Source: a virus
Virus record (IMG/VR): IMGVR_UViG_3300022859_000007
Coordinates: 1-42,718 of that record
DNA: 42,718 nucleotides
Strand: one strand, 5' to 3'
This document shows, in pieces, positions 34,843 to 39,072 of this stretch. The first letter of the stretch is position 1; each line of letters opens with the position of its first letter. The notes beneath the pieces were generated by a model. The model had not been told where the DNA came from. It was given only the letters and a program-made list of their open reading frames with translations, and ran no database searches. The translations under genes and the position numbers were made by a program.

Positions 34843-36364
34843 TGCCGTAAATCCTTTCACGGGAATAAGGGTCGTAGAGGGGAGCGATGGTTACATCAGA
34901 CTTAGGAATATGCCCCTGTTTAGGAACGAAATGTGGGTAAGCAAAAGTGCAAGCGAGCGCGTCTGCGATGTTCGGGGAAGGCACACCTCGTGATCTCATA
35001 TCTTTCTTTGACTCGAGGAGGATTGCTTCACGTGAGTTAAGACCATACATCGGCCCCGCCAATTCGTCCACCAGTGAAACCACTTTACCCGTTGTGGTGG
35101 TCATAGTCAATGAGGGGATTGACCCCGTACCAAGCCAATCTCGGACTGCCCCCCAGATTTCAGCTCGTTTGTTTGCGTACTTGATCCCGGACTCAATCTC
35201 GTTAGTCGCGTCCGGTTTGGAGCTGAAGTCTACCTCAACCACGGGTATGCGGAGTTGACGAAGCCGGTCAACTACCCCGCCGCCTACCCCGCCGCTGTCT
35301 ACCATGACGATTGAGGCGTTGAGGGAGTTGAAGACATTAGCTACCTCAGCAGCGAGGAACATCAGGTCGGATTTGTAGATGAGTTTGGGTGGGTACTTGA
35401 GTCCATCCCTGCCTTGGCGCGGGTAGATAACGGAGGGGTCATCCCCGAACCTGCCAACATCGACACCGATGATGATTGGTGCTTCTGTTTGAGGCTCGAC
35501 TGGGCGTTCCACAGCGGCTTGTGCGAGATCTCGGGAGATGAAGGAGTCTGCATCGACCCGGGGGAACTCACCCTTAACACGTACCCGGAAGAAGTCAGAG
35601 TCTTCCCCGTAGTCTCGGCCCCACTCAGCAAGCTTTTCCTTATTCGTGAAGGTGACTGTGCGGGAGTCTACCGCCATAGTTTTCCAGCGATGAGCGAACA
35701 TGCCACCGGGATGACACTCGCGGAACCTGCCGGAGTTCTTTGTCGGGTTGCTGAAGCATACCCAGATGATTTCTGTGTCTTTATCGGTGAGGGCGCCCTC
35801 GGTAACTTCCCAGATCACGTCCTCGATTGCGGAAGCTTCGTCATAGACGACGAGGATACGCTTGCGTTGGTTGTGGAGACCAGCAAAAGCCTCGGTGTTC
35901 TTTTCCGACCACGGAGTCATGTCTATTCGCCAAGTTTTGTCACGCTCTTTGTCGGTGGAGAATAGGGCAGTTGCGGTAAGTTTGAAAAGGTCTCTGGCGA
36001 TGAAGCGGCGGAACCAAGTGGCAAGCTCGACCCATGTCTTTGTTTTCAGCTGAGTTTCTGTGTTGGCAGTTACGACCCCGCGAGTGTCGGGGAAGGTGGA
36101 GATGGCCCAGAGGATGATCCATGCAACGAGGGCGGACTTCCCGATCCCGTGGCCGGAGGTGACGGCAAGGAGGATAGCTTTATCTGGGGTCAAGAGACCT
36201 TGTTTGAGTTGGAGCAAGATTTGTGTCTGCCACTCTTCTGGCCCCTTGAACTCAGCTAACGGTCCACCTTCCTCGCCCCACGGAAAAGACCAATAGACAA
36301 AGCCGAGGGGGTCGTTCGCGTAAAGGCCGAGGTCGTCTATTATTTGGTCGAGGTCTTCTGCCAT
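34829..36364 (-). CDS. terL: Terminase large subunit, 511 aa
   Basis: The packaging motor and nuclease. Walker A SGHGIGKS is at 70-77, Walker B LVVYDEAS (Asp175, Glu176) follows, and the RNase-H-like nuclease has GVDVGRFGDDPS, MVDSGGVGGG and, near the C-terminus, PNIADALACTFAYP, carrying the acidic metal ligands. ATG 36364 begins at the conserved part; a start at 36466 would overlap the upstream gene by about 100 nt. It is separated from terS by the fibre and lysis genes, unlike T7, where the two are close together. Confidence 0.93.
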   Translation of the reverse strand: MAEDLDQIIDDLGLYANDPLGFVYWSFPWGEEGGPLAEFKGPEEWQTQILLQLKQGLLTPDKAILLAVTSGHGIGKSALVAWIILWAISTFPDTRGVVTANTETQLKTKTWVELATWFRRFIARDLFKLTATALFSTDKERDKTWRIDMTPWSEKNTEAFAGLHNQRKRILVVYDEASAIEDVIWEVTEGALTDKDTEIIWVCFSNPTKNSGRFRECHPGGMFAHRWKTMAVDSRTVTFTNKEKLAEWGRDYGEDSDFFRVRVKGEFPRVDADSFISRDLAQAAVERPVEPQTEAPIIIGVDVGRFGDDPSVIYPRQGRDGLKYPPKLIYKSDLMFLAAEVANVFNSLNASIVMVDSGGVGGGVVDRLRQLRIPVVEVDFSSKPDATNEIESGIKYANKRAEIWGAVRDWLGTGSIPSLTMTTTTGKVVSLVDELAGPMYGLNSREAILLESKKDMRSRGVPSPNIADALACTFAYPHFVPKQGHIPKSDVTIAPLYDPYSRERIYGNANT

Positions 36365-36368
36365 GGGG

Positions 36369-36689
36369 TTAAGTCTTTCTCCATAGGGTTTTGCCCGGTG
36401 ACGGAGCTGGGGACGTGTCGTGGAAGATATGAGAACGGAGGATGCAATCGTTCTTATCCACCTCAATAGCTACGCCAATTCCGTTAGGGTAGGAGAGGAT
36501 AACTATGTCGGGAAATTTTGGAGTCCTCACGTAACGCCAAGGGAGTATGTTGGCCTTGTTTGCAATTTCCGCGATAACCTCATCCGGGGTTTTGCAAAGG
36601 AAAGGTTTTGCGACGGGGAGCGGGGGTGATTGTGCGAAAGCGGGGAAAAGGAAAAGGATGCCGGAAAGGGCTAGGATGAAAGTTTTCAT
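36369..36689 (-). CDS. Exported protein with signal peptide, 106 aa
   Basis: Residues 1-19 (MKTFILALSGILFLFPAFA) form a clear Sec signal with an AFA-Q cleavage site; no lipobox Cys is present. The mature part is about 87 residues, Pro-rich at its start, with two Cys that could form a disulfide in the periplasm. It overlaps the neighbour by 4 nt (ATGA). A secreted outer spanin without lipid or a host-modifying periplasmic protein are options; neither is shown. Confidence 0.7.
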   Translation of the reverse strand: MKTFILALSGILFLFPAFAQSPPLPVAKPFLCKTPDEVIAEIANKANILPWRYVRTPKFPDIVILSYPNGIGVAIEVDKNDCILRSHIFHDTSPAPSPGKTLWRKT

Positions 36690-37159
36690 GAGCGGGGTAC
36701 CTCCGGGATGGTTAAGTGATCAAAACGGATTTTGGTAATCCAGAAAGGATGGCAGGTGTAGTTAAGTATAACAAGCCACTCAGTCGCGTCAGGGTAGGGA
36801 AAGAAATCTATTCGGACTAGTTCGCCAAGGTTTGGCCCTTTCGGAAAAGCGGTTGGCGGGGAACTGGCAGGCAGGTCTACCCTTTCATAGTTTACCCTTT
36901 TTTGCACATCGTCTTCAAGAGCGAAAATTAAGACAAAGTTTTCTTTGGCGGGGGTGCAGTCCTCCCTGTCTCGGACAAAGTGAAACCGGCCAAGCACGCC
37001 ATCATCCTCAACTATTCCCTGCGGGACAAACTCAAAGGTGGAGAGGACAGGGAAGAACTGGCGCTCGATAAAAGGGCCCATAAAGAATAAGGTAGTAAGA
37101 CCTAGCAAGCAAATACTTGCCCAAACTGCTCCGTAGTATGAAGATTTTAAGATCGTCAT
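36686..37159 (-). CDS. Membrane-anchored protein with periplasmic domain, 157 aa
   Basis: One hydrophobic segment (about 10-28, AVWASICLLGLTTLFFMGP) anchors the chain, leaving about 125 residues that probably face the periplasm, with Cys pairs. The start overlaps the previous stop (TAATG). It lies between a spanin-like gene and a secreted protein, so a role at lysis or at the envelope is possible. No family was recognised. Confidence 0.7.
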   Translation of the reverse strand: MTILKSSYYGAVWASICLLGLTTLFFMGPFIERQFFPVLSTFEFVPQGIVEDDGVLGRFHFVRDREDCTPAKENFVLIFALEDDVQKRVNYERVDLPASSPPTAFPKGPNLGELVRIDFFPYPDATEWLVILNYTCHPFWITKIRFDHLTIPEVPRS

Positions 37160-37443
37160 TAGTTTGCCTCAAGTTCCCTGATTAACCGGCCCACATTACT
37201 GTCTATGACGAGAACAGTTCTGTTTACTTCATTTATCGTATTGACGAGTCTTTCTATCTGTTGATCCTGCCGTTCATTCTGCGCGACATTTCGGGCAATC
37301 TCAGCCTGCTGGCGTAGGTTTTCCCCCTCGAGAGAAGAGATTATCCGGGCTGACTGCCAGCCTATCCCGGCAATTATTATAAAGGCGGAGACGAAAGCGG
37401 CCACTTTTCCAAATCCGAGTTGGTTTAAATCGTCAATAGACAT
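37159..37443 (-). CDS. Spanin-like membrane/coiled-coil protein, 94 aa
   Basis: ATG 37443 opens a chain with one N-terminal transmembrane helix (about 13-32, KVAAFVSAFIIIAGIGWQ) and a long charged coiled coil (SSLEGENLRQQAEIARNVAQNERQDQQIERLVNTI), the layout of inner-membrane spanins (Rz-type). It follows holin-like and endolysin genes. The start codon lies in the loop of a perfect 15-bp hairpin, which hides the weak GAAAG ribosome site. A TTG at 37509 would add 22 residues and is less likely. Confidence 0.65.
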   Translation of the reverse strand: MSIDDLNQLGFGKVAAFVSAFIIIAGIGWQSARIISSLEGENLRQQAEIARNVAQNERQDQQIERLVNTINEVNRTVLVIDSNVGRLIRELEAN

Positions 37444-37460
37444 ATAGTGGCCGCTTTCGT
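37391..37460 (-). promoter_or_regulatory. 15-bp hairpin enclosing a start codon
   Basis: ACGAAAGCGGCCACT (37391-37405) and AGTGGCCGCTTTCGT (37446-37460) are perfect inverted copies with 40 nt between. On the minus-strand mRNA the first arm covers the ribosome site and the loop begins two bases before the ATG at 37443; the second arm lies in codons 13-17. It would strongly reduce translation unless opened. Confidence 0.7.
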
Positions 37461-37480
37461 GTTTTTGCAGAAAGGAGTTC

Positions 37481-37702
37481 TTACGTTTTCCATCCCCGAC
37501 TGCGGGCAAAGGCGTACCAGACCTCGACCAGTATCCATGCGATAATGCCTGCGGCGACCTGCGCTGTGTTGGTGCCGGGGGTGGAGGTCAGGCCGGTAGC
37601 GGTTTCGATAACCTGTTGAGGGGTGATACCTGTGCCGATGGCGACTCCGGAACCGACCCGGACTATATTACGGACGAGGGGGAGAAGTGCAAGTAAGTTC
37701 AT
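37481..37702 (-). CDS. Holin-like membrane protein, 73 aa
   Basis: ATG 37702 lies behind AGGATTAAATAAC at the end of the endolysin gene; the same frame extends upstream through the Pro-rich endolysin tail, but without a good start. One amphipathic N-terminal segment (MNLLALLPLVRNIVRVGSGVAI) and one strong transmembrane helix (AAGIIAWILVEVWYAFA) with a short basic tail fit a small holin. The call rests on size, topology and position next to the endolysin. Confidence 0.6.
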   Translation of the reverse strand: MNLLALLPLVRNIVRVGSGVAIGTGITPQQVIETATGLTSTPGTNTAQVAAGIIAWILVEVWYAFARSRGWKT

Positions 37703-37703
37703 G

Positions 37704-38354
37704 TTATTTAATCCTGAAGAGTTGTTTAAGGAAAGTGACGAACCAATTGGAGGGGGTTGGAACGGGTGAGGGCGGGGGAAGTGATGGAGCGGGAGGAGCG
37801 ACAGAGGTAACGCCGTAGCCGGAAGTTTTAAGGGCGGTGTCGTACTCACGGGCAATCGCCGCAATCTCTTTCTGTTTGTCGATGCCGTTGATGATACGAC
37901 GAGCGTTGACGAAGCCGGACCGCTGGCGGGTTATGTAGTCGGATAGTTTCTTGCCTGTGAACCAGCCTTCCAACATGCCAATGACAAGGATTTTTACCGC
38001 GTGTTCAGGCTTCAAAACATCTTCCGGCCGGGCAGTGAAATCAACACCGATCTTGTCGGCCGCACGCTTGTAATTTGACCGGCCTGTGATTTGGACATAG
38101 CCCCGGCCGTGATATTTAATGCCATCACCGGGCGACAGGTTCCCTAACTCGCGGGCCTTGCTCGGCCGGTCGCCCTTGATGTCGTACATCTTCTTGAAAT
38201 ACGCATTGCCGCCGAATTCATTAATCGGCCGCATCGTATAACCAGTCTCAAGATTGGTTGTCGCCAGCACATACGCACATTGATTGCGCAATACGCCACG
38301 TGCCTTGCACTCGTCTACAATTAGGGCTGTGTCGCCCTTGATCATGTCGATCAT
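37704..38354 (-). CDS. GH19-type endolysin, 216 aa
   Basis: The domain contains LATTNLETGYTMRPINEFGG (Glu36 and Glu46 as the likely catalytic pair) and GIKYHGRGYVQITGRSNY, hallmarks of glycoside hydrolase family 19 phage endolysins, which cut the peptidoglycan glycan chain. After residue 180 a Pro-rich linker (APPAPSLPPPSPVPTPS) leads to a hydrophobic/basic tail (NWFVTFLKQLFRIK) that could bind membranes. No signal peptide is present, so a holin is needed. Start 38354 overlaps the previous stop by 4 nt. Confidence 0.9.
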   Translation of the reverse strand: MIDMIKGDTALIVDECKARGVLRNQCAYVLATTNLETGYTMRPINEFGGNAYFKKMYDIKGDRPSKARELGNLSPGDGIKYHGRGYVQITGRSNYKRAADKIGVDFTARPEDVLKPEHAVKILVIGMLEGWFTGKKLSDYITRQRSGFVNARRIINGIDKQKEIAAIAREYDTALKTSGYGVTSVAPPAPSLPPPSPVPTPSNWFVTFLKQLFRIK

Positions 38355-38593
38355 AATTTCTTCTTTCGTTTGTAAAACATCCAGCCAAATGCAGAAACTG
38401 CGCTGAAAAACGCACCGGCAATAACTGGATTTGCTGCGGTGTTGAGGCAATAGAAAAAGGCGCTGTCTGCGACGGCTTTAGGAATGCCAGATGCCGCATA
38501 AGCCAGATCATGCCAGTTGCAGCACTCAGTCACCGGATCGCGCCATGGCAACCGGTTGATCAGCCATTGGATGAATGAGCAGCCATTGGCCAT
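38351..38593 (-). CDS. Small PLA2-like motif protein with membrane helix, 80 aa
   Basis: CCNWHDLAY (Cys24, Cys25, His28, Asp29) matches the C-C-x2-H-D active-site signature of phospholipase A2-like proteins, preceded by NGCS and followed by a conserved-looking AD and Cys49. Residues about 55-72 form a transmembrane helix ending in KRKKK. Similar small proteins are common next to phage lysis genes; enzyme activity is not established. The start is set by a TGATG overlap at 38591-38595; an in-frame ATG at 38659 is possible. Confidence 0.65.
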   Translation of the reverse strand: MANGCSFIQWLINRLPWRDPVTECCNWHDLAYAASGIPKAVADSAFFYCLNTAANPVIAGAFFSAVSAFGWMFYKRKKKL

Positions 38594-39072
38594 CAGGATC
38601 GTATCTGCGCTTCTTTTATCCCAACAGTCGAACCACCGTTCATAGCGGTGAAGCTCCATCGGTAGTACCGATACTCAGCACGTTCCGACAAAGAAAAATC
38701 CTGCTCCGCGCTAGACGTACCTATTCCTGATTGCGTATCGAGTGTGGTCCAAGCACTGTCATTGTCTGATCCCTCGAAAGTCCACGCAGCAGGATCGCGG
38801 GTAAGTCCCTCACCCTGCAGCATGTAGCTGTAAGCCACTTGTGAGCTGCCGAAATCCACTTTCAGCCAAGTAGAGACCGCGTGCCGCCATCGGCTGGGTG
38901 AGCTTGTACCCTTGTCGAAAGCCTTCCACGCACGTACGCTTGCTGTGCTCTCTCCAAGAGCACTGACAGTTATCGCCCCAAGAGTATAACCGGACATGGT
39001 TCCAATTAAATCAGCGCCATCTCCTGCCGGGCCTCCCGCACTTCCCACAAGCAGCATATTCTGTGCAAACAT
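38593..39072 (-). CDS. Discoidin-like (F5/8C) receptor-binding candidate, 159 aa
   Basis: The segments TWLKVDFGSSQVAYSYMLQG, TRDPAAWTFEGSDNDSAWTTLD and YRYYRWSFTAMNGG follow the order seen in galactose-binding-like F5/8 type C domains, which bind surface sugars. It lies after the collagen-like fibre, as a fibre tip or receptor-binding subunit would. The N-terminal 50 residues include a Gly-rich stretch. The start overlaps the preceding stop (TAATG). Confidence 0.7.
   Translation of the reverse strand: MFAQNMLLVGSAGGPAGDGADLIGTMSGYTLGAITVSALGESTASVRAWKAFDKGTSSPSRWRHAVSTWLKVDFGSSQVAYSYMLQGEGLTRDPAAWTFEGSDNDSAWTTLDTQSGIGTSSAEQDFSLSERAEYRYYRWSFTAMNGGSTVGIKEAQIRS

Follow-up and report, generated by a model that had tools for sequence, protein, structure and literature searches.

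A perfect inverted repeat around the start codon of a lysis-cassette membrane protein gene: a candidate start-sequestering hairpin in an uncultivated virus

The window analysed here is the full 42,718-base length of an uncultivated virus record, IMGVR_UViG_3300022859_000007. Its left 17 kb carries genes mostly on the plus strand, and beyond ~17 kb, as far as the right end, the convincing genes are essentially all on the minus strand. The hairpin that is the subject of this report is located in a minus-strand lysis cassette, the features of which are given below in minus-strand order.

37704–38354, minus strand: GH19 chitinase-type endolysin (phrog_181, E 1e-33; PF00182, above cut-off)
37481–37702, minus strand: upstream 73-aa gene, a small membrane protein and possible holin (weak match to Phage_holin_10 (Pam3 gp28), E 0.001, below the curated cut-off)
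37444–37480, minus strand: 37-nt leader, from the stop of the upstream gene to the ATG; Shine-Dalgarno (SD) energy -1.9 kcal/mol
37446–37460, minus strand: 5' arm of the repeat, in the leader, 5'-ACGAAAGCGGCCACT-3'; ends 2 nt before the ATG and is complementary to 37391–37405 at 15 of 15 positions
37406–37445, minus strand: 40-nt loop, holding the ATG start codon (37443–37441) and codons 2–13
37391–37405, minus strand: 3' arm of the repeat, 5'-AGTGGCCGCTTTCGT-3'; running from base 3 of codon 13 to base 2 of codon 18 (..K VAAF V..)
37159–37443, minus strand: 94-aa hairpin gene, ATG at 37443–37441, stop ending at 37159; N-terminal hydrophobic segment and coiled-coil-like tail
36686–37159, minus strand: downstream 157-aa membrane protein gene, overlapping the end of the hairpin gene by 1 base

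Beyond the 157-aa gene the cassette continues with a 106-aa protein that has a signal-peptide-like start, followed by the terminase. Relatives were sought with five queries (the hairpin gene, the holin-like gene, the downstream gene, the lysin and the terminase), the last two of which gave 80 loci each. A small gene resembling the 73-aa holin-like gene is found downstream of the lysin in L117/L118. The 157-aa gene (36686–37159) has a possible distant relative of 139 aa in the lysis cassette of L111 (E 0.079), with a CHPxW motif near the end common to both, and on the basis of this cassette relative it may be a lysis accessory gene. Before the endolysin, a 102-aa gene (38351–38659) weakly resembles group XII secretory phospholipase A2 (E 6e-5, short of the cut-off); L086 has a relative of it at the same place.

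The 94-aa protein had been described as spanin-like, a fair guess by position and shape that finds little support in family matches or in a search for a partner. It has one hydrophobic segment, at about residues 9–27 (hydropathy 2.1), and a tail judged by eye to be coiled-coil-like, and the charge pattern of the 94-aa form gives no clear preference for an N-in topology. An i-spanin would be a type II inner-membrane protein with an N-terminal TM segment and a helical domain in the periplasm, but one TM segment with a coiled coil would not decide whether the protein is a spanin. Rz-like PHROGs match at sub-threshold level (E 0.002–0.02), NCBIfam LysB scores 16.5 bits against a cut-off of 92.75, no match to a curated spanin family was obtained, and the unrelated DivIC family matches equally well. 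A partner lipoprotein is among the features that define two-component spanins (PMC6139136); scanning the minus strand from 32.5 to 42.7 kb with a simple lipobox pattern gave no plausible candidate for one, the sole match being an out-of-frame stretch overlapping the lysin and the gene upstream of it. In the comparable cassettes of L106 and L133 a spanin-like pair is followed by a further transmembrane (TM) coiled-coil gene, and the 94-aa protein may be of this second sort.

The repeat itself, 37391–37405 with 37446–37460, was the only one returned by a repeat search of positions 36900–38000, and both this search and the minus-strand fold agree exactly with the original prediction of a start codon at 37443 in a 40-nt loop closed by 15 perfect pairs. 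The right arm had been assigned to codons 13–17; it does lie in the gene, but its span is slightly longer, as listed above, and its codons are ordinary. Within the window this is the sole perfect inverted repeat with arms of at least 13 nt (loops up to 100 nt), the runner-up being 12 nt, and further copies of it were not found. Among genomes simulated with a second-order Markov model, 1 in 150 contained a repeat of at least 15 nt. When the longest complement between leader and coding sequence was determined for 39 gene starts of the genome, it reached 15 at 37443, and at most 7 at all others. A second contig, IMGVR_UViG_3300022834_000072, is 100% identical across 4523 bp, both arms included, and a third is identical to another part of the genome. 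An assembly artefact is thus an unlikely source of the hairpin, since the same sequence occurs in the second contig, with the proviso that two identical contigs could stem from related samples.

The minus-strand RNA from 37360 to 37490 (131 nt) is predicted to fold into the hairpin, with a minimum free energy of -36.8 kcal/mol (z -3.6) that none of 200 shuffled sequences equalled, and the helix alone, closed with a short artificial loop, contributes -27.5 kcal/mol. On these predictions the hairpin very likely forms. The start codon would sit 2 nt inside the loop and the 15-nt stretch preceding the loop would be fully paired, the region masked by the helix being the standby site and the footprint just upstream of the ATG. 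Start-sequestering structures place the start codon and/or the SD in a stable helix, or close it off by one, and by prediction the start at 37443 is closed off in this way.

Accessibility was expressed as the energy cost of freeing positions -20 to +13 from structure, and was computed for 39 starts of the genome (the entry at 36358 sits at the wrong codon and is to be disregarded). The ATG at 37443 has the highest opening energy of those examined, 22.8 kcal/mol, and this cost depends on how far the RNA extends: with a 3' end at +37 it is 8.3 kcal/mol, at +44 11.7, at +50 19.3 and at +52 24.4. The original prediction that the hairpin hides the ribosome site is therefore right in effect, but at just -1.9 kcal/mol of pairing there is hardly any SD to hide. 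Other weak-SD starts of the genome are mostly open, at about 2 to 7 kcal/mol (38354: 6.8; 10788: 2.5; 8205: 2.4), with 42604 and 15678 both at 11.5; as most of them are unstructured, a weak-SD start beneath the strongest structure stands out. From the modelled energies, the hairpin most likely lowers initiation at 37443; the structure should block it strongly, leaving the start nearly silent on folded RNA, barring co-transcriptional or upstream-ribosome help. Truncating the RNA in silico from the 5' side into the arm restores access, with opening energies of 11.3 kcal/mol for a 5' end at 37452, and 3.2 for one at 37448. A promoter scan confined to sigma-70-like sites found none in the 5' arm.

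A diverged ortholog of the 94-aa gene was not found in viral contigs, species genomes, phage records or plasmids, where the only other copy is identical; the collections searched for its two neighbours, the identical contig aside, gave no diverged orthologs of these either. The loci retrieved with the terminase and lysin likewise contain no clear diverged ortholog besides that contig, their surroundings carrying other genes, and the best match among them is weak (L117, E 0.0009). Searches with the exact hairpin and with degenerate peptides returned the identical contig and two unrelated reading frames only. A positionally comparable 99-aa gene for a single-TM coiled-coil protein, near-identical in L106, L124 and L126, has a start that becomes occluded (L106:5080, L124:5104 and L126:5104), at 24.9–26.2 kcal/mol compared with 7.6–8.6 when the downstream sequence is cut. 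The start of the L107 homologue is not occluded (13.1 kcal/mol, versus 14.7 with the 3' end cut), which rules out start occlusion as a conserved trait of such TM coiled-coil genes. In L133, a 15-bp repeat lies inside the spanin-like gene, past the start rather than across it. A 14-bp perfect repeat with a 58-nt loop at L025:12170–12255 has a 5' arm into which the GTG start codon of a 220-aa gene appears to fall, and is possibly another start-occluding hairpin.

The explanation that accounts best for these results, put forward tentatively and at a little below even confidence, is that the late minus-strand mRNA folds into the hairpin, so that the start region of the gene for the 94-aa membrane protein is sequestered. 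A 30S subunit meeting the full-length folded message would have to open 15 pairs almost without SD help, and initiation would be very low. It would occur mainly while the 3' arm within the gene has yet to be transcribed, a short span of about 50 nt; alternatively, the stem might be disturbed by ribosomes or scanning 70S from the upstream gene, the stop of which is 37 nt before the ATG. With the last base of this stop at 37481 and 20 nt between it and the stem, a ribosome terminating there probably falls short of it, to judge from the typical ribosome footprint; scanning could reach it, and translational coupling is known at positive spacings of this order (PMC12548453). One membrane protein of the lysis cassette would then be made in step with transcription, and in small amounts compared with its neighbours. 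The repeat, its identity in two contigs, the predicted fold and the standing of its energy among the other starts are shown; folding in vivo, lowered translation, a part in lysis or its timing, and selection are inferences. Counting against the explanation are the identity of the only other copy, the ordinary codons of the 3' arm, the unoccluded start of the L107 homologue, the excess of perfect long-loop repeats in related phages, and a 5' arm in which no promoter-like site for a T4-type switch was found. A stricter version, a promoter-free kinetic gate in which the almost SD-less start is open only until the 3' arm ~50 nt downstream is transcribed, is unlikely, and if true would mean that protein output tracks transcription events and not the amount of mRNA.

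The perfection of the complement had been taken to point to selection, a step that does not hold, as a single template-switch event during replication can produce a perfect reverse-complement hairpin (PMC8794818) and such repeats are over-represented in related phages, mostly off starts. The latter was established across the 157 loci (1.30 Mb) fetched with the terminase and lysin, in which perfect repeats with loops of 15–100 nt were counted and compared with second-order Markov simulation: 19 were observed against 3.7 simulated for arms of 12 nt, 7 against 1.3 for 13 nt and 5 against 0.3 for 14 nt, about 5 to 15 times above simulation, and for arms of 15–19 nt there were 6 against none. Those inspected lie mostly away from start codons. 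A 38-bp perfect inverted repeat ending exactly at a contig end (L059:4814–4922) is outside this count of 6, and is probably an assembly or library fold-back. Against this empirical background the repeat at 37391–37460 is less exceptional than against a random one. It is possible, if somewhat doubtful, that it is a mutational by-product, in which a template switch (quasi-palindrome) copied 15 nt of the gene, as reverse complement, into the intergenic leader; the hairpin would then be a recent, tolerated accident, and the protein either dispensable or made in sufficient amount anyway. The origin of perfect stems in single events, the excess of long-loop perfect repeats at every arm length, and arms without a mismatch or G-U pair, which fits youth, all favour such an origin. 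At the background rate, a window of this size is estimated to contain about 0.2 such repeats, and roughly 0.01 whose loop includes a start codon; a chance coincidence with a start is accordingly unlikely yet not negligible, many windows being scanned. It is nevertheless unusual for such a repeat to lie exactly across a start codon, and if the gene needed high expression, selection should disfavour a stem that costs a real start about 20 kcal/mol. As the genome scan covers many windows, the coincidence of repeat and start codon is suggestive, not conclusive.

The remaining readings concern what else a stem at this place might do, or where the gene begins. Fifteen perfect pairs at an intergenic and start position in a polycistronic late region would suit an mRNA processing or stability element, of RNase III type or as a 5'-protecting stem, setting the downstream genes apart from the holin/endolysin message. 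RNase III substrates usually have roughly 20 or more pairs, a length the stem does not reach, none of the other starts tested in the genome has a stem like it (next longest 7), and Rfam gave no meaningful match; this reading is improbable. Translation could instead begin at an in-frame TTG at 37509 (116 aa), either alone or with the ATG serving as a second start, which would make the hairpin intragenic; at most it would then balance two products that differ at the N-terminus, in the manner of dual-start holins. The frame is open to 37509, SD pairing there is -6.6 kcal/mol versus -1.9 for the ATG, and the extension is rich in positive charge; judged from the sequence, this would suit an i-spanin, for which an N-in topology is expected. 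It is however unremarkable for 22 codons to stay open, TTG is rare among the starts of the genome, the longer gene would overlap the upstream gene by 29 nt, and the 22-codon extension is without coding signal (-0.06 bit/codon versus 0.34 for the gene); this lack supports the ATG at 37443 as the start. The TTG is a very unlikely one. Hardly credible is an intrinsic terminator for plus-strand (antisense) transcription, for which the plus strand at 37446–37466 reads AGTGGCCGCTTTCGT-GTTTTT and folds stably: the loop is 40 nt where 3–8 is usual, the element is not listed by a terminator scan (which was limited to loops of 3–8), and no convincing plus-strand genes lead in, those beyond ~17 kb being essentially all on the minus strand.

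Should the start-sequestering reading be correct, an uncultivated phage would be gating the start of a lysis-cassette gene with a very simple hairpin, which would also offer a clean system for testing co-transcriptional initiation where an SD sequence is lacking. If it is not functional the case is instructive in another way: arm perfection alone is no evidence for selection, because random models greatly underestimate how often perfect long-loop repeats occur in the DNA of these phages.

Among known systems, the hairpins that arise by template switching (PMC8794818) resemble this one in their perfect reverse-complement arms and unrelated spacer, and differ in that the event is read from phylogeny, where here there is no ancestor or relative for comparison. 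Structure-masked lysis genes under translational coupling, such as MS2 coat-lysis, and f1 genes VII/IX (PMC12548453), form a further group for comparison. The MS2 coat and lysis genes overlap, with a spacing of -50 nt (PMC12548453), whereas here 37 nt separate the upstream stop from the start and 20 nt separate it from the stem, which is probably out of reach of a terminating ribosome. The hairpin had also been likened to those at the start sites of holin genes; the nearest precedent found is not a holin but the T4 lysozyme gene e (PMC3014915), in which a local helix keeps the 30S subunit from the start region of a lysis-related phage gene, as is predicted here. T4 also has start-hiding structures in soc, 49 and I-TevI; like that of e, they lower translation, the effect in e being about 100-fold (PMC3014915). 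The 94-aa gene differs from e in not being the endolysin, in having almost no SD and in a 5' arm without a promoter-like site found, and a switch like that of e would require transcripts beginning within this arm, as from an internal late promoter. For T4 e there are relatives with similar leaders, and for the hairpin of the 94-aa gene none to compare. If it acts in regulation, the element would, by analogy, be a candidate to join the known start-sequestering phage hairpins of T4 e, soc, 49 and I-TevI (PMC3014915).
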